Part shown: in pieces, positions 4,508 through 22,484 of the stretch
Layout of the letters: each line of letters begins with the position of its first letter
Numbering within the stretch: the stretch's first letter is position 1
DNA from: Rhodospirillales bacterium
GTDB lineage: Bacteria > Pseudomonadota > Alphaproteobacteria > ATCC43930 > CGMCC-115725
Direction: 5' to 3'
DNA length: 64,000 nt
Assembly: GCA_947473305.1 (NCBI GenBank)
Contig: CANJCB010000021.1
Location: 1-64,000 of the forward strand
Made by a program: the position numbers and the translations under genes
The notes under the pieces: model-generated
The model's database searches: none
Seen by the model: only the letters and a program-made list of their open reading frames with translations
What the model was told of the DNA's origin: nothing

Positions 4508-5328
4508 GACGCTTCCCCCAGGAAACCTGCCACGGCCTCGGCGTAGTCGGCCGTCCGCTCAAGCGGCGAGAGATGCCCGCAGCCGAGGAGGATCGTCAGC
4601 TTCGCCTGGGGCAGCAACTCCTTGAAGCGATGGGCGTAAGCAAGCGGGAACATGCCATCCTGCTCGCCCCAGACGATATGGCTCGGCATGGAGGCCCGAT
4701 GCAGCCAGCGCTCCAGATGCGGGTTGAAAAAGGGCGGCGCCCAGGCGACCCGCGCCAGGGTCCTTTGGTCCTTCAGACGGTTTTCGAGAGCCTCGGGTCC
4801 CAGTGATTTTTCCCGCGCGACCTGGGCTTTGATCTGGGCCTCGTCGGCGAAGGAGTGGCGGATCACCTTCTCCGCCGACCAGAAGAAGGGGTCGCCCTTC
4901 GGCACGCCCTTGAGATGGATCCCTGCCGCGCCGCCGATGGTGAGCGTCCTGAGCGCGACCGGGCAACGCACCGCCATCTCAAGCGCGATCCAGGCTCCGA
5001 CCGAATGGCCGACCACATGGACCGCCCCCAGCCCCAGCGTCTCGATCAGGTCGAGGTAGAAGAGCGCATAGTCCCCGATATTGTCGAGCCAGTCCGGGAT
5101 CTCCTCGCCGAAGCCCGGATGGAGCGGCGCCGTGACCTGGAATCGCGCCGCCAGGCTTTCGACCGCCGGCAGATAATCGTCGAGGCCCTCGTTGCCGTGG
5201 AGATAAAGCAAAGGCGCGCCCGCGCCCGCCCGATGCAGCGAGACCTCCCGTCCCTGAACCTTCAATCGAGAGAGCGTCGATCCCAAGAGACCTCCCCGCC
5301 GCGTTTTCGCAGATGGAGAAGTCTGCAC
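4504..5328 (-). CDS. Alpha/beta-fold hydrolase
   Basis: A 274-aa (from GTG at 5328) serine hydrolase. The nucleophile elbow is GHSVG with Ser109; HGNEG near residue 44 forms the oxyanion-hole strand; the acid is probably in WGEQDGMFP and the base in GCGHLSPLE. It resembles esterases and C-C or lactone hydrolases of aromatic and cyclic-ketone pathways. A TTG at 5286, in frame, is preceded by GGGGAGG at ideal spacing and may be the true start (260 aa); the GTG has no room for a ribosome-binding site. First gene of a three-gene minus-strand operon, with a sigma70 promoter at 5386-5414. Confidence 0.85.
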   Translation of the reverse strand: MQTSPSAKTRRGGLLGSTLSRLKVQGREVSLHRAGAGAPLLYLHGNEGLDDYLPAVESLAARFQVTAPLHPGFGEEIPDWLDNIGDYALFYLDLIETLGLGAVHVVGHSVGAWIALEMAVRCPVALRTLTIGGAAGIHLKGVPKGDPFFWSAEKVIRHSFADEAQIKAQVAREKSLGPEALENRLKDQRTLARVAWAPPFFNPHLERWLHRASMPSHIVWGEQDGMFPLAYAHRFKELLPQAKLTILLGCGHLSPLERTADYAEAVAGFLGEAS

Positions 5329-7001: not shown

Positions 7002-7298
7002 ATGAGACCATGGATCAAAGGAGCGCTTTTGGTTGTCGCTCTGGCAGGTGCGCCGGCGATGGTTTCCGCTCCGGCTCACGCGGAATCGGTGGATTTCAGC
7101 GTCCGCCTCGGCAACGCCGCTTTCGGTTATAGCGACGGGTACTGGGATCGGGAGCATCGTTGGCATCGCTGGCGGAACGCCGCGGAGCATCGCTATTATC
7201 GCGAGCATTATGCGGAGCATTATTACAAGGTCCGCCATGATAACGACCGCCGTCACAACGGATGGCGCGAGGAGCGTTGGTGGGATCACCGGGGCTAA
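7002..7298 (+). CDS. Small secreted His/Arg/Tyr/Trp-rich protein
   Basis: A 98-aa protein with a clear Sec signal (MRPWIKGALLVVALAGAPAM, cleavage after AHA near residue 27). The mature part is dominated by His, Arg, Tyr and Trp with repeated HRYYREHYAEHYYK-type segments. Such composition suggests metal or polyanion binding, but no family is recognised. GGAG precedes the ATG by 9 nt. It is followed by a strong rho-independent terminator. Probably a single-gene transcript; function unknown. Confidence 0.7.
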   Translation: MRPWIKGALLVVALAGAPAMVSAPAHAESVDFSVRLGNAAFGYSDGYWDREHRWHRWRNAAEHRYYREHYAEHYYKVRHDNDRRHNGWREERWWDHRG

Positions 7299-12536: not shown

Positions 12537-13595
12537 TTAAGACGCGGGGGCGTCGTCCTTGAGCCAGCGGCCCTTGGATTCCGTGCCCGGACCCATCGAC
12601 TTTTCATAAAGGCCCTTGCCGAAGAAATACCAGTCCTGCAGCTCGCGGTAGGTGATCGGCGGATATTTCGCCGGCTCCTCGGCCGAGGTGCAGCAGGGCA
12701 GGACATCGATCACCGTGTCGAGGTCGCTGCCGAAGAAGACCGGGATCGAATAACGCGCCTTGCCGCTGGTATTGACCACCGTGTGCTTCGTCGAGAGGAA
12801 GCGCCCATTGGTCCAGCGCGACAGCGAATTGCCGGTGTTGACCATGAAGGCACCGGGCTTGATATCCGCCACCCGCCAGTGACCCGACGGCATCTGCACC
12901 GCAAGGCCGGGGACGTCGGCCTGGGCGAGGATGGTCATGATGGTGTTGTCGGTATGAGGCTTGATGCCATAGGGGCGGCTCTTGTCCGTCTCCATGGGCG
13001 GGTAATAGATGAGGCTCGTCGCAAGCCAGGGGTTTTTGAAATACTGGGCGAAGTAATCCGCCGGCAGGTCGAGGGCCGCGGCCCAGATCGGCATCATGGC
13101 GAGGCCGACCTTCTCTACCGCGTTGTAATATTCCAGGACCTTCTCGCGGAAGCCCGGCAGATCCTCCGGCCAGGCATTGGCGCGGCGATAGGGGTCGGCG
13201 GGATCGATATGGGGATTGTCGGGGCCACGCTCGATATAAAGGAGGTAGCTCGACGAGAGATTGGCGGGCGGCTCGCCGGGACGGGCGGCCTTTTCCTCCC
13301 AGGATTCATATCCCAAGGGGATGTCCGGGGACTTTTTCGGCATCTTGCCGCGCGTTTCGGCCGGCAGCTCGTGGAAGCGGCGGGACTGGCCGAAAACCTC
13401 GTCGAAGAGGCTCAGTGGCACGCCATGGCCCGTGAGGTAGAAAAAGCCGATGGTCTCGGAAATCTCGCGCAGTTCGGCGCCCAGCCGCTCCCGCGCGCCG
13501 GGCTTGCCGGCCATATAGTCCGAGATGTCGAGGACCGGGATCTCTTCGGTCGAATCGGGATGGGCCGCGAGGTAGGCTTCGTCTTGTCCGTCCAT
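12537..13595 (-). CDS. Isopenicillin N synthase-like 2-oxoglutarate/Fe(II) oxygenase
   Basis: A 352-aa non-heme iron oxygenase with the N-terminal DIOX_N region (IPVLDISDYMAG, GFFYLTGHGVP) and the C-terminal double-stranded beta-helix. Iron ligands are in KPHTDNTIMTIL (H-x-D) and STKHTVVN (distal His), and the oxoglutarate-binding R-x-S is in KARYSIPVFF. Such proteins hydroxylate or desaturate small molecules. It ends 10 bp from the convergent TPR-like gene and starts 22 bp after an EhuB-like binding-protein gene in the same direction, so the two are probably one transcript under the operator at 14544. Substrate unknown. Confidence 0.88.
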   Translation of the reverse strand: MDGQDEAYLAAHPDSTEEIPVLDISDYMAGKPGARERLGAELREISETIGFFYLTGHGVPLSLFDEVFGQSRRFHELPAETRGKMPKKSPDIPLGYESWEEKAARPGEPPANLSSSYLLYIERGPDNPHIDPADPYRRANAWPEDLPGFREKVLEYYNAVEKVGLAMMPIWAAALDLPADYFAQYFKNPWLATSLIYYPPMETDKSRPYGIKPHTDNTIMTILAQADVPGLAVQMPSGHWRVADIKPGAFMVNTGNSLSRWTNGRFLSTKHTVVNTSGKARYSIPVFFGSDLDTVIDVLPCCTSAEEPAKYPPITYRELQDWYFFGKGLYEKSMGPGTESKGRWLKDDAPAS

Positions 13596-13617: not shown

Positions 13618-14496
13618 TCAGTGCGAGCTAGTATCCGATTCCGCGCAGGCGCGGTCAGCTGTTAATTCGGCGCTTCCCGGGAAGACGTCGAAGGTGAAGC
13701 CGGTGATGATCTTCTGCCATTCGCCGGAGACCTTCATCTTGCGGAATTCGGCGATGAAGGCGCTGCTGAGGTCCGTGTCGGCGGGACGGAAAGCGGCGCT
13801 CGCCGGGCTCACCATATCGTCGGGCAAGGGATAGAGATATTCGAAGGAACCGGGCTTCTGTTTGATGACTTCGCGGATCACGCGCATGCCGGTGCAGCCG
13901 ATCTGGGCGCGCTTGGCGGTTACCGCTTCAAGAATAGCGGGGCTGTCGGGATAGACCTGGATGTAGTCTTCCGGCTTCTCGTAGGCGGCGCGGAAGGCCT
14001 TCATGTTGTAGGCGCCGGCCAGCACCGCGAACTTCAATTTGCGCTGGCCGATCTCCTTGATCGTCTTGGGCGGATCGGGCAGTTCCGACTTCAAATAGGG
14101 GTAGGCGGCGTAATCGACCGTGAAGGGATCGCAATAGGTGACCTGGTCGCAGCGCTCCTTGGTGATCGTCATATCGGCGCCGATCATGTCCCAGCGCCCG
14201 GCCTGCAGACCGGGAATGAGCTGGCCATAGCTCACGACGATGCCTTCGACCTTGGGCACGCCCAGCCGCTCCATGACCGTGCGGACCAGCGTCGGTGCGA
14301 CGCCATCGAGCGAACCGTCCGGATTGAGCGAGGAATAGGGCAGGCCGTTGGTGATGCCGATCTTGATCACGCCGGCTTTGCGGACTTTGTCCAAAAGCCC
14401 GTTGCCGGCCTGGGCGAAGGCCGGGGCGCTGCCGAGCAGCGCACTGCTGCCCGCCAGAAGCCCGAGCATCATTCGTCGCGACAAGTCTGCAGTCAT
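13618..14496 (-). CDS. EhuB-like ABC transporter substrate-binding protein (SBP family 3), paralog 1
   Basis: A 292-aa periplasmic binding protein with a Tat-like signal (LSRRMMLGLLAGSSALLG). The mature domain carries GVIKIGITNGLPYSSLNPDG and SYGQLIPGLQAGRWDMIGAD, the pattern seen in ectoine-type EhuB and related amino-acid binding proteins. Cys residues in ERCDQVTYC, in IGCTG and near the C-terminus may form disulfides. ATG 14496 follows AAGGGGCG; the longer upstream frame would bury the signal. The GntR-type operator at 14544-14566 lies 48 bp upstream. No permease or ATPase partner is in the window. Four related copies or remnants occur at 1440, 17348, 18314 and 19351. Confidence 0.9.
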   Translation of the reverse strand: MTADLSRRMMLGLLAGSSALLGSAPAFAQAGNGLLDKVRKAGVIKIGITNGLPYSSLNPDGSLDGVAPTLVRTVMERLGVPKVEGIVVSYGQLIPGLQAGRWDMIGADMTITKERCDQVTYCDPFTVDYAAYPYLKSELPDPPKTIKEIGQRKLKFAVLAGAYNMKAFRAAYEKPEDYIQVYPDSPAILEAVTAKRAQIGCTGMRVIREVIKQKPGSFEYLYPLPDDMVSPASAAFRPADTDLSSAFIAEFRKMKVSGEWQKIITGFTFDVFPGSAELTADRACAESDTSSH

Positions 14497-14543
14497 GGTT
14501 CGCCCCTTTTTGCTTTGCTGACCGGCGTCGTTTTGACTGCCAG

Positions 14544-14566
14544 ATTGTAAAATGGATCCAAAATTG
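14544..14566. promoter_or_regulatory. Predicted GntR operator, copy 1 (upstream of binding-protein gene)
   Basis: ATTGTAAAATGGATCCAA followed by AATTG is repeated with one change at 15442-15464, on the other side of the GntR gene. The core TGGATCCA is a perfect palindrome, as expected for a dimeric FCD-type GntR regulator. On the minus strand the site includes TACAAT, a possible -10 for the binding-protein gene. Confidence 0.65.
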
Positions 14567-14706
14567 AACCTCATGGAGCCTGGGCTGTCAAGAGCGGCAG
14601 CCGGCAGTGGGGAATGATTTGTCAGGGAGGCAATGGGAATTTATAGTCCTATCGTTCCCGGAGTCCCTCGCGGGTCTGGCGCAGATAAAGGCGAATCGAG
14701 TTTTTC

Positions 14707-15423
14707 ATGAAGAGTACCAAGCCGAGAAAGCTCTCGGATGTGCAGGGGTTGGCCATTCCGGATTTGCCGCCGAGTCTTCCGGACTTGGCCTACCGGTATC
14801 TCAGGGATGCGATCCTCAACGGCCAGCTCGCCTTCGGCGCGGCGATCCGCCAGGAGGATATCGGCGCCCGCCTGGGCATCAGCCGCCTGCCGATCCGTGA
14901 GGCCTTGCGCCGCCTGGAGGCCGAGGGGCTGGTGGTCCTGAAGCCTCGCCGCGGCTATTCGGTCACCTCCCTCAGCTGGGAAGAGATCGAGGATATCTTC
15001 GACACGGCCGCCGTTCTGGAGGAGCGCGCGGGATATCTCGCGACACAGAAGCGGACCCAGGCCGATGTCGACGCCCTGGAATTGGCGCTGCGCGATCTCG
15101 ACGGCTTCATGAAGCGGGGCGCCACGCGGGATCTGGCGGCTTTCGGCAAGGCCAACGCCCGCTTTCACAGCCGGCTCGTCGCGACGGCGGACCGCAGCTA
15201 TCTCTCCCGGCTGCTCACCACGGTTCAGAACAATGTGGAGCATTATGTGCGGGTCGGCGCGGGGCTTGTGCCGGAGCTCGACGCCTCGAACAGCGAGCAC
15301 CATGCGATCTTCGAGGCCTTCAAGGCGGGCGACGCCGATACGGTGGGCTCGCTCTCCCGCAGCCATCGGAAAAGCACGGGGCGGCGATTGCTCGACTATC
15401 TTCAGGCGAAGGCCCCCGACTGA
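14707..15423 (+). CDS. GntR-family transcriptional regulator, FCD domain
   Basis: A 238-aa regulator. The winged-helix DNA-binding domain spans about residues 25-95 (LAYRYLRDAILNGQLAFGAA, EDIGARLGISRLPIREALRR, LEAEGLVVLKPRRGYSV). The helical FCD ligand domain follows, with metal-binding His in NARFHSRLV and EHHAIFEAF. FCD regulators usually respond to carboxylic acids and repress catabolic or uptake genes. It is the only DNA-binding regulator in the window and is flanked by two near-identical palindromic sites, so it probably controls the binding-protein/oxygenase gene pair to the left and the Rieske oxygenase to the right. Confidence 0.93.
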   Translation: MKSTKPRKLSDVQGLAIPDLPPSLPDLAYRYLRDAILNGQLAFGAAIRQEDIGARLGISRLPIREALRRLEAEGLVVLKPRRGYSVTSLSWEEIEDIFDTAAVLEERAGYLATQKRTQADVDALELALRDLDGFMKRGATRDLAAFGKANARFHSRLVATADRSYLSRLLTTVQNNVEHYVRVGAGLVPELDASNSEHHAIFEAFKAGDADTVGSLSRSHRKSTGRRLLDYLQAKAPD

Positions 15424-15441
15424 GACGGGTTGCTAACGCAT

Positions 15442-15464
15442 ATTGTAAAATGGATCCAATATTG
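15442..15464. promoter_or_regulatory. Predicted GntR operator, copy 2 (upstream of Rieske oxygenase)
   Basis: ATTGTAAAATGGATCCAA followed by TATTG is identical to copy 1 at 22 of 23 positions. It overlaps the -35 element and spacer of the likely promoter at 15443-15471, so bound regulator would block polymerase. Confidence 0.65.
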
Positions 15465-15471
15465 TTATTGA
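15443..15471 (+). promoter_or_regulatory. Likely sigma70 promoter of the Rieske oxygenase operon
   Basis: TTGTAA (15443-15448) and TATTGA (15466-15471) are spaced by exactly 17 bp, and the GntR operator fills the -35 and spacer. Transcription would start near 15478, about 65 nt before the ATG. Confidence 0.5.
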
Positions 15472-15544
15472 AGACCGCGCTCGCCGATATCGGTTAGAGT
15501 GACGATGGGGTTCGCCCCCAAAGGTTTCAGCCAGGAGGCGTCGG

Positions 15545-16807
15545 ATGCTCGACAATAGCATATGGCCCGCGAAGGATTATTCGCGGGTTCCGTTCAGGCT
15601 CTATCACGACCAGGAGGTCTACGATCTGGAGCGGGAGCGGATCTGGCGAGGGCCGCTCTGGTCGTTCCTGGGCCTCGAGGCCGAGGTCCCGAAGATTGGC
15701 GATTTCCGCACGAGCTTCATCGGCGATATCCCCGTGGTCTACAACCGGGGCGACGACGGCAAGGTCTATGGCTTCGTCAACCGTTGCGCCCATCGCGGCT
15801 CGACGGTCCGGCGCGAGGCCTATGGCAATGCTGCCGACCATACCTGCATCTATCACCGCTGGTGCTACGATAAGAAGGGAGGGCTGATCGGCGTGCCCTT
15901 CCGGCGCGGCGTCAAGGGGCAGGGCGGGCTCGATCCGGCCTTCGACCAGGCGCAGCACGGGCTGGAGACGATCCGCATCGAGAGTTGGCACGGCATTCTC
16001 TTCGCCACCTTCTCCGACAAGGTGGAGCCCCTGGAGCAATATCTCGGCGGCCCGATGTCGAACATGCTGGCGCGCATCATGGCGCGGCCGGTGAAGGTGC
16101 TGGGCTATCAGCGCCAGCGCATTAAGGGCAACTGGAAGCTCTATTGCGAGAATACCCGCGATCAGTATCACGGCAGCCTCTTGCACCAGTTCCACATGAA
16201 GTTCGGCATCACCCGCGTGACCCAGAAGGGCGGCGCCTGGATGGATACGCGCCACCGGCACAGCATCTCCTATACCCGCGAGGACACCGACGCCCAGGAC
16301 AGCGCCCAGGCGATCGCGGCCTATGCCGACCAGAAGGTCGCGGAGAGCGACTTCCAGCTGAAAGACCAGGGCATCCTCGGCTACAAGCAGGAATTCGACG
16401 ACGGCGTGAGTCTTGCCATCTGCTCGATCTTCCCGAACGGGACCTTCCAGCAGATCCGCAACAGCATGGCCGCGCGTCAGGTGCGCCCGCGCGGCATGGA
16501 CGAGTTCGAGCTTTATTGGACGATCTTCGGCTACGAAGGCGACGACGAGGAGTTGGAGATGCATCGTCTTCTCCAGACCAATATGATCGGCCCGGCCGGC
16601 TTCATCTCCATGGAGGACGGCGAGGCGGTCGAGATCGCCCACCGCGCCACCATGCTCGAAGGCGAGGCCTGTTCGATCATCGAGATGGGCGGCGGCGGCA
16701 AGATCCCCGACGAGATCACCTTCAAGGTGAGCGACGTGCCGCTCCGGGGCTTCTGGTCCTATTACGCGGAATTGATGGGCATCGAGCCTGAAGGCGGCAT
16801 TCGATGA
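15545..16807 (+). CDS. Aromatic-ring-hydroxylating Rieske oxygenase, alpha subunit
   Basis: A 420-aa catalytic subunit that inserts oxygen into an aromatic ring using electrons from a reductase. The Rieske 2Fe-2S ligands are C81-A-H83 and C101-x2-H104. The mononuclear iron site is H209 and H214 in DQYHGSLLH with the bridging Asp206, and the third ligand is probably D358 in ISMEDGE. Overall it resembles oxygenases for carboxylated aromatics such as anthranilate or salicylate, but specificity cannot be read from sequence. The beta-subunit gene overlaps in ATGA. No ferredoxin or reductase gene is in the window, so electrons must come from elsewhere. Controlled by the adjacent GntR by inference. 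Confidence 0.93.
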   Translation: MLDNSIWPAKDYSRVPFRLYHDQEVYDLERERIWRGPLWSFLGLEAEVPKIGDFRTSFIGDIPVVYNRGDDGKVYGFVNRCAHRGSTVRREAYGNAADHTCIYHRWCYDKKGGLIGVPFRRGVKGQGGLDPAFDQAQHGLETIRIESWHGILFATFSDKVEPLEQYLGGPMSNMLARIMARPVKVLGYQRQRIKGNWKLYCENTRDQYHGSLLHQFHMKFGITRVTQKGGAWMDTRHRHSISYTREDTDAQDSAQAIAAYADQKVAESDFQLKDQGILGYKQEFDDGVSLAICSIFPNGTFQQIRNSMAARQVRPRGMDEFELYWTIFGYEGDDEELEMHRLLQTNMIGPAGFISMEDGEAVEIAHRATMLEGEACSIIEMGGGGKIPDEITFKVSDVPLRGFWSYYAELMGIEPEGGIR

Positions 16808-17277
16808 TCGCCTCCGAAAAGCGGGACGCCATCGCCGACCTGATGGCCGAATACGCCTATCGCATCGACCGCGACAAGCTCGAGGACTGGGTGAACCTCT
16901 TCACCGAGGACTGCCTCTACAAGGTGGTCCCGCGCGAGAACGTCGCCCAGGGCCTGCCGGGCGTGCTGCTGATCTGCCTGAATCGCAACATGGTCCACGA
17001 CCGGGTGACTTCGCTCAGGGTCGCCAACGAATACAACATCCATGTGGACCGCCACGTGATCGGCGCGCCGAGGCTCACCGCCCAAGCCGACGGTTCGGTC
17101 AGGGCGGAGAGCAACTACGCGCTCTTCCAGACCAATCAGGAAGGCGAGAGCTGGCTCTTCAGCGTCGGCTGCTACGAGGACGTGATCGTCTTCCAGGGCG
17201 GCAAGGCGCTCTTCAAGGAGCGGGTGGTGATCGTCGATACCTACGCGATCCCGAACCTGCTCGCGACGCCGATCTGA
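16804..17277 (+). CDS. Aromatic-ring-hydroxylating oxygenase, beta subunit
   Basis: A 157-aa SnoaL/NTF2-like small subunit that builds the alpha3-beta3 oxygenase. Blocks such as AEYAYRIDRDKLEDWVNLFTED and FKERVVIVDTYAIPN are family-typical. Its ATG overlaps the alpha-subunit stop, giving coupled translation. A hairpin terminator follows at 17303. Confidence 0.9.
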   Translation: MIASEKRDAIADLMAEYAYRIDRDKLEDWVNLFTEDCLYKVVPRENVAQGLPGVLLICLNRNMVHDRVTSLRVANEYNIHVDRHVIGAPRLTAQADGSVRAESNYALFQTNQEGESWLFSVGCYEDVIVFQGGKALFKERVVIVDTYAIPNLLATPI

Positions 17278-17347: not shown

Positions 17348-18214
17348 CTACACCGTCCCGCTGCAGGCCTGCTCGGCCGTCATATTCTCCGTCCTTGGCG
17401 AGATCTCGAAGCCGAAGGTTCCGATGATCTTCTGCCATTCGCCCGATTTTTTCATCTTCTGAAACTCGGCCTTGAAGGCGGTGATGAGGTCGGTGTCGCC
17501 GGGGCGGAAGGCGGCGCTGCCGGGGCTCAAAAGGTCGTCGGGCATGGGATCGACATGCTCGAAGGCGCCGGGCTTGCCCTTCAGCACTTCCTTGATCAGG
17601 ACGATGCCGGTACAGCCGATCTCCGCGCGCTTGGCGGTCACGGCTTCGAGGATCGAGTTCGTATCGGGATAGGTCGCGATGAATTCGTCGGGTTTTTCAT
17701 AGAAGGACTGGACGACCTTCAGGTTGTAGGTGCCGGCCAGCATGGCGAGTTTGATCTTGCGCTGGCCCATTTCCTTGAGGCTCTTGGGCGGAGAGGCGAA
17801 GGCGCCCGGCAGATAGACATAGGCCGCGTAATCGACCGTGAAGGGATCGCAATAGGTGACCTGTTCGCAGCGCTCCTTGGTGATCGTCATATCAGCGCCG
17901 ACCATGTCCCAACGGCCTGCGAGAAGGCCGGGGATGAGTTGCCCATAGGATCCGACGATACCCTCGACCTTTGGGACCCCGAGGCGCGCCATCACCGTCT
18001 TGACGAGCGTCGGGGCGACGCCGTCCACCGATCCATCCGGGTTCAACAGGGAATAGGGCAGGCCGTTCGTCATCCCGATCTTGATGACACCCGCCTTGCG
18101 CACGCGTTCCAGAACTCCGTCAGCCTGGGCTAGGGCACCGCCGCTCGCCAAGCCGATTCCACCGGCGGCCATGAGGCCAACGAAACCGCGTCTCGACCAA
18201 TTCGCCTCTGCCAT
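17348..18214 (-). CDS. EhuB-like ABC transporter substrate-binding protein, paralog 2
   Basis: A 288-aa periplasmic protein with a twin-arginine-type leader (NWSRRGFVGLMAAGG) cut near residue 30. The body matches paralog 1 in long stretches, including PYSLLNPDGSVDGVAPTLVK and GRWDMVGADMTITKERC. Candidate disulfide cysteines are C116, C122, C201 and C285. The ATG at 18214 follows GGAG. A leader motif shared with two neighbours lies at 18245-18258. It is followed by a hairpin terminator, so the three tandem copies may each have their own promoter. Ligand unknown; proximity to the Rieske oxygenase suggests its substrate or a related carboxylate. Confidence 0.9.
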   Translation of the reverse strand: MAEANWSRRGFVGLMAAGGIGLASGGALAQADGVLERVRKAGVIKIGMTNGLPYSLLNPDGSVDGVAPTLVKTVMARLGVPKVEGIVGSYGQLIPGLLAGRWDMVGADMTITKERCEQVTYCDPFTVDYAAYVYLPGAFASPPKSLKEMGQRKIKLAMLAGTYNLKVVQSFYEKPDEFIATYPDTNSILEAVTAKRAEIGCTGIVLIKEVLKGKPGAFEHVDPMPDDLLSPGSAAFRPGDTDLITAFKAEFQKMKKSGEWQKIIGTFGFEISPRTENMTAEQACSGTV

Positions 18215-18313: not shown

Positions 18314-19198
18314 CTAGGCCGCGCCGGCGCAGGCCTGCTCGGCGGTCACGTTTTCCTTGCCCGGAAAGACCTCGAAGCCGAAGGATTCGATGATCTTCTT
18401 CCATTCGCCCGAGGCCTTCATCTTCTGGAACTCGGCCCGGAAGGCGGTTCTGAGATCCGTGTCGCCCGGCTTGAAGGCGGCGCTTGCCGGGCTGATCATG
18501 TCGTCGGGCGCGGGATAGAGATATTCGTAGCTGCCGGGCTTCTGCTGCAGCACAAGCTTGATGTTGCGACCGCCCGTGCAGCCGATTTCGACGCGCTTTG
18601 CCGTCACCGCCTCGAGGATCGCGGGCGTGTCAGGGTAGATCTGGATGAACTCGTCCGGCTTCTCATACATGGACTGGATGAGCTTCAGATTGTAGGAGCC
18701 CGCCAGCATCGCGAGCTTGGTCTTGCGCGCGCCGATTTCCTTGAGGGTCTTGGGCGGGTCCTTATAGGCGCCCGGCAGATAGACATAGGCCGCGTAATCG
18801 ACCGTGAAGGGATCGCAATAGGCGACCTGGGCGCAACGCTCCGCGGTGATCGTCATATCGGCGCCGACCATGTCCCAGCGCCCGGCCATGAGCCCGGGGA
18901 TAAGCTGGCCGTAGGTTGCGACCACGCCTTCGACCTTCGGCACGCCAAGCTTCGCCATCACCGCCTTGACGATCGACGGGGCGACGCCGTCCACGGTGCC
19001 ATCGGGGTTCATGATGGAATAGGGCAGGCCGTTGGTCAGCCCGATCTTGATGATGCCTTCCTTCTGCACCCGCGCGAGAAGGCCGTTACCCGCCTGCGCC
19101 GCGGCCTCGCCCCCGCCAAGCGCGAGGCTGCCAAGTCCCGCGCCGCCGGCCGCCATCAGGCCAAGCATGTCACGTCGCGTCCAATCGTTTTTCACCAT
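18314..19198 (-). CDS. EhuB-like ABC transporter substrate-binding protein, paralog 3
   Basis: A 294-aa protein with the leader MVKNDWTRRDMLGLMAAGG, again twin-arginine-like. The body shares PYSIMNPDGTVDGVAPS, TYGQLIPGLMAGRWDMVGAD and the Cys pattern ERCAQVAYC, IGCTGG and EQACAG. ATG 19198 is chosen because it follows GTGGAGG and starts the signal; an in-frame codon at 19210 would put the ribosome-binding site inside the gene. The shared leader motif is at 19234-19247. Tandem with paralogs 2 and 4, no transporter membrane or ATPase genes nearby. Confidence 0.9.
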   Translation of the reverse strand: MVKNDWTRRDMLGLMAAGGAGLGSLALGGGEAAAQAGNGLLARVQKEGIIKIGLTNGLPYSIMNPDGTVDGVAPSIVKAVMAKLGVPKVEGVVATYGQLIPGLMAGRWDMVGADMTITAERCAQVAYCDPFTVDYAAYVYLPGAYKDPPKTLKEIGARKTKLAMLAGSYNLKLIQSMYEKPDEFIQIYPDTPAILEAVTAKRVEIGCTGGRNIKLVLQQKPGSYEYLYPAPDDMISPASAAFKPGDTDLRTAFRAEFQKMKASGEWKKIIESFGFEVFPGKENVTAEQACAGAA

Positions 19199-19350: not shown

Positions 19351-20219
19351 TTAGACGGCTCCCGTGCAGGCCTGTTCGGCGGTAACGTTCTCCTTGCCGG
19401 GGAAGACCTCGAAGGTGAAGGATTTCAGGATCTTCTCCCATTCCCCCGATTTCTTCATCTTCTGGAATTCCGCCTTGAAGGCGGTGATGAGATCGGTGTC
19501 GCCGGGGCGGAAGGCGGCGCCGGCCGGCGCGACGATATCGTCGGGCAGGGGATAGACGTATTTAAAGGCGCCGGGTTTCGTCTCCAGCAATTGCCGGATC
19601 GAGCGGACGCCGCTCGCGCCCATCTGCACCCGCTTGGCGGTGATCGCGTCCATGATCGCCGCGGTGTCGGGATAAGTCGTGATGTGGTCGTCGGGCCGTT
19701 CGTAAAAGGCCTGGATGACCTTGAGGTTATAAGTCCCTGCCAGAAGGCCCAGCTTGATCTTGCGCGCGCCCATCTCTTTCAGGGTCTTGGGCGGATCGAA
19801 ACCTTCCGGCAGATAGACATAGGACGAGTAATCGATGGTGAAGGGATCGCAGAAGGTGACCTGCCCGCAGCGGTCCGGGGTGATCGACATATCCGCCCCG
19901 ATCATGTCCCAGCGCCCGGCTTGGAGGCCAGGGATGAGCTGGCCATAAGTGTCACCACGACGCCCTCGATCCGGGGTACGCCCAATCGCTCCAGCACGGT
20001 CTTGACGATGGTCGGCGCGACGCCGTCCAGCCTGCCGTCGGGATGCATGAAGGCATAGGGCAAGCCGTTGGTGAGCCCGACCTTGATGACGCCTTCCTTG
20101 CGGATCTTTTCAAGAAGGCCGTTGCTGGCACCTTGTGCAAGCGCCGGCCCGCTCCCAAAGAGACTGCCACCCAATCCCATCAGTGCCAGCATGTCGCGCC
20201 GGGTCCAAACGTGCTTCAT
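19351..20219 (-). pseudogene. EhuB-like substrate-binding protein, paralog 4, frameshifted
   Basis: The gene starts at ATG 20219 after CGGAGGG, with leader KHVWTRRDMLALMGLGG, and keeps its frame to about residue 90 (RIEGVVVT). There an extra AC (plus-strand GTGT at 19949-19952) shifts the frame. Removing two bases gives VVTYGQLIPGL, in perfect register with the paralogs, and the remainder reads through DMIGADMSITPDRCGQVTFC to the stop at 19351. One conserved Cys is also lost (MGASG for IGCTG). It is either a recent slippage mutation or a sequencing error; as read, no full-length protein is made. Confidence 0.85.
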
Positions 20220-21615: not shown

Positions 21616-22364
21616 GGCTTTCCTCCTTGGTTGTCGTCGAAGCCTTCGAAATGGGCGAATTCACGGGCCGGCACGCGCTCGGTGACCAGCTGGTTTTCCA
21701 GCGCCGTCAGATCGGCATAGCCCAAGGACATGCCGCAGGTGACCATCTCCTCGGGCGCCAGGGGCAGGTGCTGCCGGATGATGTCGTGGAAGGGCGGAAA
21801 CGAGGCCTGGGGGCAGGTATCTAGCCCATGGCCGCGCGCCGCGATCATGACATTCTCCAGGAACATGCCATGGTCGAGCCAGCTTCCGGGCTCCAGCCGC
21901 CGGTCGATGGTGAAGATCAGCCCCACGGGCGCGCCGAAGAACTCGTAGTTCCGGGCATGGAAGGCGTTCATTTTCTCGCCTTCGCCGCGGGCGATGCCGA
22001 GGAGGCCGTAGAGATCCCATCCGACTTTCCGCCGCCGGGCCAGATAGGGCTCGAAAAAGGGCGTTGGGTAATAGGCGTATTTCTCGTGCTGGCGCGGCGC
22101 GCCGGATAGAAAGGCCTCGACCAGCGCGCGGCACAGGCGGTCCCTCGGTTCCCCCGCCACCGCATAGGCGCGCCAGGGCTGCGTATTGGTGCCGCTCGGC
22201 GCGCGGGCCGAAACGTCCAGGATATGTTCGACCAGAGTCTTCGGGACCGGCTTGTCGAGATAGGCGCGCAGCGATCGCCGCGAGCTGATCGCCCGGTCGA
22301 CCGCTGCCGCGTCTGAGTTTCCTTCGGCACCCTCGGGTGACGCTTGCTGCATGATTGGATCCAT
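21612..22364 (-). CDS. Nitroreductase family protein
   Basis: A 250-aa FMN-dependent oxidoreductase. The opening SSRRSLRAYLDKPVP and the FMN-binding ARAPSGTNTQPWRAY are the family signature, with NVMIAARGHGLDTCP later. Members reduce nitroaromatics, quinones or flavin substrates. The ATG at 22364 (MDPIM) is chosen; another ATG at 22352 is possible. A 12-bp sequence AATGGATCCAAT, identical to the GntR operator core, spans 22354-22365 at the start. First gene of a three-gene set with the RidA-like and hydrolase genes. Confidence 0.85.
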   Translation of the reverse strand: MDPIMQQASPEGAEGNSDAAAVDRAISSRRSLRAYLDKPVPKTLVEHILDVSARAPSGTNTQPWRAYAVAGEPRDRLCRALVEAFLSGAPRQHEKYAYYPTPFFEPYLARRRKVGWDLYGLLGIARGEGEKMNAFHARNYEFFGAPVGLIFTIDRRLEPGSWLDHGMFLENVMIAARGHGLDTCPQASFPPFHDIIRQHLPLAPEEMVTCGMSLGYADLTALENQLVTERVPAREFAHFEGFDDNQGGKP

Positions 22365-22365
22365 T
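22354..22365 (-). promoter_or_regulatory. Possible third GntR operator core at the nitroreductase start
   Basis: Minus-strand AATGGATCCAAT is identical to 12 central bases of the operator at 15442-15464. It overlaps the first codons if translation starts at 22364, or lies just upstream if it starts at 22352. The outer ATTG flanks are not conserved, so this is weaker than copies 1 and 2. Confidence 0.35.
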
Positions 22366-22484
22366 CGCCTATTTCGCGACCTTAGCTTGGGCAATGCGCC
22401 TTTGTCAGCCTGTCATTCGGCCGCCGGTCTTTCAATTATCGGATGAGCGGCATACCGTCTCGGGAAAGCCTTTGGGAGGGCGCG

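Follow-up and report, generated by a model that had tools for sequence, protein, structure and literature searches.

Two near-identical 23-bp sites enclose a gene for a GntR/FCD-type regulator in the window, a stretch of 64,000 nucleotides from a Rhodospirillales bacterium (GenBank assembly GCA_947473305.1, contig CANJCB010000021.1, positions 1 to 64,000), and their assignment as operators of the enclosed protein is well supported by sequence comparison. This support has two sources, as the closest regulators carry a matching site upstream of their own genes and as characterised proteins of the VanR type bind such short inverted repeats. In the full model, to which we give a probability of about three in four, a regulator dimer would bind an inverted pair of half-sites, a third CAA box would add contacts, expression of both flanking gene sets would be blocked, and a small acid would release the protein from the DNA.

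The repeated sites and the enclosed regulator

Searches of the window and of the genome place site 1 (ATTGTAAAATGGATCCAAAATTG) at 14544..14566 and site 2 (ATTGTAAAATGGATCCAATATTG) at 15442..15464, both on the plus strand and 898 bp apart. They share the 23-mer ATTGTAAAATGGATCCAA[A/T]ATTG with 22 of 23 bases identical, the sole mismatch (A/T) being at position 19; coordinates and number of mismatches are as the first-pass annotation had given them. The 23-mer has two matches in the window as opposed to none in 100 window shuffles, and with up to 3 mismatches it occurs in its own genome (4,695,435 bases in 105 contigs) at these two sites only. A repeat search of the window recovers the pair as a 26-nt repeat of 92% identity. 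Beyond the 23-mer the flanks agree at 15/60 and 17/60 positions, which is background; the sites are therefore not a piece of a longer repeat.

The description of the sites as palindromic operators holds for the 8 bp of TGGATCCA, to which perfect palindromy is limited. The 10-mer ATGGATCCAA matches its own reverse complement at 8 of 10 positions, the whole 23-mer is not palindromic, and a third, direct half-site had been missed. The TGGATCCA core by itself is found at 52 places in the genome, TTGGATCCAA is matched 4 times in the window when 1 mismatch is allowed (1.79 expected, with 13 of 100 shuffles reaching 4), and a loose 15-base version with up to 3 mismatches has 5 (6.07 expected). As the core is common and the loosened patterns are unremarkable in the window, it is the extended sequence that needs explaining.

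The gene between the sites (14707..15423, plus strand) encodes the proposed binder of both, a protein of 238 aa. Its N-terminal GntR winged helix-turn-helix (PF00392, 57.4 bits, cut-off 27) and C-terminal FCD domain (PF07729, 73.6 bits, cut-off 24.3) confirm the earlier assignment to the FCD subfamily of the GntR superfamily. It had also been called the only regulator gene, which agrees with a Pfam comparison of 50 window proteins, the regulator included, in which no second DNA-binding regulator was matched; further open reading frames in the gaps, with part of the small ones, were read by eye. According to the accessible part of PMC7797058, the VanR subgroup is marked by six, not seven, effector-domain helices. 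The AlphaFold model of the regulator (mean pLDDT 85.4) predicts six, at residues 91-114, 118-136, 143-161, 164-184, 189-206 and 210-235, which is consistent with membership of this subgroup.

A fold search points in the same direction. Ranked by E-value, chains of Atu1419 come first, its DNA complex among them (TMq 0.65-0.70), while by TM-score VanR-group entries such as AlkR fit better (TMq up to 0.78) and FadR reaches about 0.5. Arg60 and Arg64 of the regulator align with Arg45 and Arg49 of Atu1419, both described as contacting DNA in the portion of PMC7797058 available. A metal site is predicted from His154, His198 and His220, which are invariant in 28 aligned sequences, and from Asn150, whose alignment column varies among relatives; three His plus Asp/Asn is the pattern of metal-binding members of the subgroup. 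The best NCBIfam match, PhnR_burk (TIGR03338), scores 105.2 bits, below its equivalog cut-off of 271.5. The protein also differs from VanR proper, which controls the vanAB vanillate demethylase genes, in that the adjacent Rieske pair is AndAc/AndAd-like.

Three boxes in the candidate operator

On the minus strand, where both window sites read TTGGATCCATTTTACAA, the candidate operator appears to be described better by three boxes than by a palindrome. The arrangement TTG-GATC-CAT-TTTA-CAA lies at 14545..14561 in site 1, recognised by the box layout common to upstream regions of related regulators, and at 15443..15459 in site 2, found by pattern match. The layout shared by the window and the related loci, NTG-N4-CAW-N4-CAR, consists of the inverted pair seen in known VanR-type sites and of a third box, a direct repeat, 7 bp on. 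The three-box reading is preferred because a further CAA stands one 7-bp step beyond the core at all 8 cores of the regulator's clade.

Relatives of the regulator were searched for in 43 genomes of the order and in a sample of 385 genomes of the class, which yielded regulators with 40-51% identity in one alignment. No orthologue above 52% identity was found in 39, 43, 385, 2, 18 and 398 genomes (overlapping sets, those of class and phylum being samples), and a strict orthologue with the same target genes was absent from the genomes searched, the best other match being 51-52% identical. The genes of the closest regulators (48-52% identical) are immediately preceded by a close match to the site: TTGGATACAATATTCAA in four genomes of one genus (L028-L031), TTGGATACAATATGCAA at L037 and TTGGATCCAATCTACAA at L038, these regulators being 48-51% identical to that of the window in the one alignment. 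A paralogue in the same genome (L018, about 41-43% identical) is preceded by CTGTATACAGGTTACAA.

The following counts describe the footprint and are not a blind test, since the pattern was noticed before counting and both the core TG.AT.CA and the offset of the third box were chosen after the loci had been seen: among 12 clade loci whose regulator has an identity of 40% or more, scanned over 250 bp upstream and with the window included through site 1, 8 have a TG-NATN-CA core (7 of 11 when the window is left out), whereas 2000 block shuffles gave 0.43 on average and never more than 3, and the third CAA box is present at 8/8 of these cores, from 5 gene lineages, with a chance of about 0.035 per site. 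The core is found at 9 of 26 more distant loci (shuffle mean 0.89, maximum 5), and outside the clade a CAA third box follows 1 of 14 cores (L023), with CAG at one more (L019). The four clade loci without the core are L039-L042; degenerate forms were read by eye at L039, L040 and L041 with the third box as a guide and were left out of the counts, and the case of L042 is weak. At L095 the regulator carries the clade's typical PRRGY wing, but the core there lacks the third box. The neighbours of the related regulators differ, with SBP_bac_5 at L032, a SnoaL-like gene at L033, and at L077 a 365-aa open reading frame with ABC-transport genes further out. On the Novosphingobium plasmid pSA1 (L094), two TGAATACAATCTAC sites at 2790 and 2940 lie upstream of a 38%-identical GntR protein and look like the CAA-TCTA-CAA half of the clade's sites.

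These AT-rich operators resemble promoter elements (TACAAT, TTGTAA), and this resemblance may account for part of their conservation. One promoter element cannot explain the third box at both sites, because the two sites share one orientation but the genes they would control are read in opposite directions; at single sites the box could still be such an element.

In Caulobacter, where VanR regulates vanillate demethylase, the VanR operator ATTGGATCCAAT holds the TTGGATCCAA core, which is exact in L038 and has one change in the window sites. Atu1419 from Agrobacterium fabrum, of the VanR subgroup of FCD-GntR proteins, binds the 10-bp palindrome ATGTATACAT with an essential G at position 3, and its sites, several per regulon, lie at the -10 or between the -10 and -35 of catabolic promoters, as far as the partial text of PMC7797058 describes them. 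The window regulator shares with it the domains, a predicted six-helix effector domain and, in its candidate sites, a short palindrome, and Atu1419 ranks first by E-value in the fold search, yet identity in the fold alignment is only 24-25%, and ATGTATACAT as described there has no third box. VanR2 of Pseudomonas sp. NGC7 is a GntR-type repressor adjoining an aromatic oxygenase operon, and its inverted repeat GGGATCCC is centred on GGATCC like the window sites; in contrast to the window, the accessible sections of PMC12314914 place three sites in one intergenic region and name a vanAB-type demethylase operon as target, with syringate and 3-O-methylgallate as inducers. AlkR, the VanR-group repressor of an oxygenase gene and close to the model by TM-score (0.78), has a palindrome overlapping the -10 regions, but its site ATTGTCAGACAAT has another spacing and its effectors are acyl-CoAs in the part of its description at hand.

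A precedent for the third box comes from Suvorova 2015 (PMC4494728): according to the available excerpt, 13 groups of the FadR subfamily have an extra, weaker box at 7-12 nt from the centre of the palindrome. The third CAA of the window lies at a similar distance, about 10-12 nt from the centre, but unlike the weaker boxes reported in that excerpt it is a full CAA, a direct repeat at 7 bp, and present at 8/8 clade cores. No operator letters are given in the accessible parts of PMC10229424 and PMC6974649, and literature searches by operator letters, and likewise by AndR/AndAc, returned no relevant match.

Predicted target genes, promoters and rival explanations

Site 1 lies before the binding-protein/2OG-oxygenase pair and the Rieske genes lie beyond site 2, and the Pfam hits of these neighbours are as the first-pass annotation had them. 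To the left of the regulator and divergent from it are the predicted target of site 1, a solute-binding protein (SBP) of family 3 (SBP_bac_3; 13618..14496, minus strand, the start at 14496 being preferred over a longer reading frame starting at 14574), and a 2OG-Fe(II) oxygenase with a DIOX_N domain (12537..13595, minus strand); order and strand suggest one transcript. Co-directional with the regulator and to its right are the predicted target of site 2, a Rieske oxygenase alpha subunit (15545..16807, plus strand), and a ring-hydroxylating oxygenase beta subunit (16804..17277, plus strand). By their Pfam and NCBIfam matches the pair appears related to anthranilate dioxygenase AndAc/AndAd, at scores below the equivalog cut-offs (alpha 460.2 bits, cut-off 750; beta 152.9 bits, cut-off 230). 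Four related family-3 SBP genes are clustered in the window (13618-14496, 17348-18214, 18314-19195 and 19351-20219), with 71-86% DNA identity in the longer blocks, and the candidate operator stands before the first only. The fourth is split over two frames (19902-20219 and 19351-19905) and is therefore either broken or affected by a sequence error.

A relaxed sigma-70-like scan of 14480-14720 gave two promoter-like pairs at 10/12 where 0.03 would be expected in shuffles. TTGACA-17-TTCAAT (14563..14591, minus strand) would serve the SBP gene and overlaps site 1 with its -10, and TTGTCA-17-TATAGT (14619..14647, plus strand) would serve the regulator gene. A stricter scan of 14400-15600 found the regulator promoter alone and no terminator-like site. 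Site 2 had been said to cover the -35 and spacer of a Rieske promoter, a claim that was not borne out, as no sigma-70-like pair of 9/12 or more was recognised in 15400-15560. This missing match is weak evidence because alphaproteobacterial promoters often depart from the E. coli consensus.

The preferred model would work as follows. The two winged helices of a regulator dimer would recognise TTG-N4-CA(A/T), the inverted pair, and the third CAA box, a direct repeat of the second box, would provide additional contacts or bring in a further subunit. Bound at site 1, the protein would block the divergent SBP/2OG-oxygenase promoter by covering its -10 and predicted start; bound at site 2, it would stop either transcription from a promoter of the Rieske alpha-beta genes or read-through into them. 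A small acid taken up or made by the products of these genes would then release the regulator. The earlier prediction that both flanking transcripts are repressed thus survives in part: repression of the SBP/oxygenase transcript fits the position of site 1, while for the Rieske transcript it is only a guess.

The alternative that deserves the most weight, quite possible if on balance the less probable course, is that transcription is controlled from site 1 alone. The promoter at 14619 would then drive the regulator and Rieske genes as a single operon, and site 2 would be auxiliary, either forming a loop with site 1 or serving as a roadblock. The Rieske genes may indeed be co-transcribed with the regulator, because they lie 121 bp apart on the same strand, no terminator-like site intervenes, and a 10/12 promoter was detected before the regulator and none at site 2, although this last absence carries little weight for the reason given above. 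A paralogous cassette on contig C4 repeats the GntR-Rieske order, and there the TG.AT.CA scan gives a single site, upstream of the GntR gene. Looping would have a precedent in Atu1419, in the available text of PMC7797058 a tetramer with methylenetetrahydrofolate as proposed effector that loops two sites 190 bp apart; the window sites, however, are much farther apart.

Another protein could also bind the two sites, since a first look at the genome gave 34 candidate relatives of the regulator (4, itself included, at E 1e-20 or better) and similar sites occur elsewhere. That an FCD paralogue from another part of the genome is their main binder, for example a regulator common to several oxygenase cassettes, is unlikely. 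In its favour, TauD-family genes on C48 and C20 are preceded by TTGGATACAGTTTCCAA at about 50 bp and by TTGAATTCAATTTACAA at about 100 bp, respectively, with no GntR gene seen by eye among the reading frames called nearby, one stretch ending at a contig end. Against it, both exact 17-bp matches of the genome flank the window regulator, whose closest relatives are the ones that have the GAT[AC] centre. Far less probable still is a remnant of a duplicated promoter or mobile element with no regulatory role. The 22 of 23 identical bases, in a window with duplicated family-3 SBP genes, would suit such an origin; against it stand the background identity of the flanks and the recurrence of the box layout next to relatives of the regulator from other families of the class.

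Similar sites in the genome and a possible wider regulon

The pattern TTGNATNCAA occurs at 17 places in the genome against 7 for its reversed form, and the 17-bp TTGGATNCAWTNTNCAA with up to 2 mismatches at 14 against 2, exact only in the window pair. Six of the other 12 places were looked at. TauD-family genes follow two of them and a second GntR-Rieske cassette follows a third; the other three fall at the starts of a luciferase-like gene, a family-5 binding-protein gene and a nitroreductase gene in the window. This suggests that several FCD paralogues may act through operators of similar sequence, which would form one family. The window's nitroreductase-family site, at 22355-22371, holds the third TGGATCCA of the window within TTGGATCCATTCGCCTA, with 2 mismatches to the operator pattern; it falls at a likely start codon and may be an operator or chance.

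The second cassette (L069, C4:56000-70000) has CTGGATCCAATTTACTA at 7290 upstream of a GntR/FCD gene, followed as in the window by a Rieske alpha gene (63% identical) and a beta-like gene. A regulator lineage shared with the window was considered for it and dropped, as its GntR/FCD protein is only 27% identical though the site is similar. Another Rieske paralogue (48% identical) is preceded at about 43 bp by TTGTATTCAA (L071, C14:91000-98127, 5074-5083), and no GntR gene was seen by eye in that stretch. Three-box-like sites stand before the two TauD-family genes (L099 4106-4122, C48:26605-26621; L097 4222-4238, C20:52221-52237) and at the start of the family-5 binding-protein gene (L090 2913-2929, C80:4912-4928); a GntR gene was not found by eye in these three stretches, and the sites are possible distant regulon members.

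A broader and tentative idea, which we regard as rather doubtful, is that VanR-type GntR regulators of one clade, the majority carrying a PRRGY wing, recognise an asymmetric NTG-N4-CAW-N4-CAR operator whose direct repeat is as important as its palindrome. In this genome, operator variants differing in the central NATN would then allow many oxygenase and binding-protein cassettes to be controlled separately.

Operators of the VanR type are already known, as are additional half-sites close to GntR palindromes, and the window pair adds one more case. The proposed switch is sound but ordinary, its one less usual feature being a third box that is strong among the sites of the clade. For a Rieske oxygenase and uptake cluster so far uncharacterised, the analysis offers a candidate pair of regulator and operator, and it supplies a concrete case, recurring in several families, of the additional half-sites described by Suvorova et al. 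with no known function. If the three-box reading is true, searches based on the palindrome only would overlook part of such regulons.
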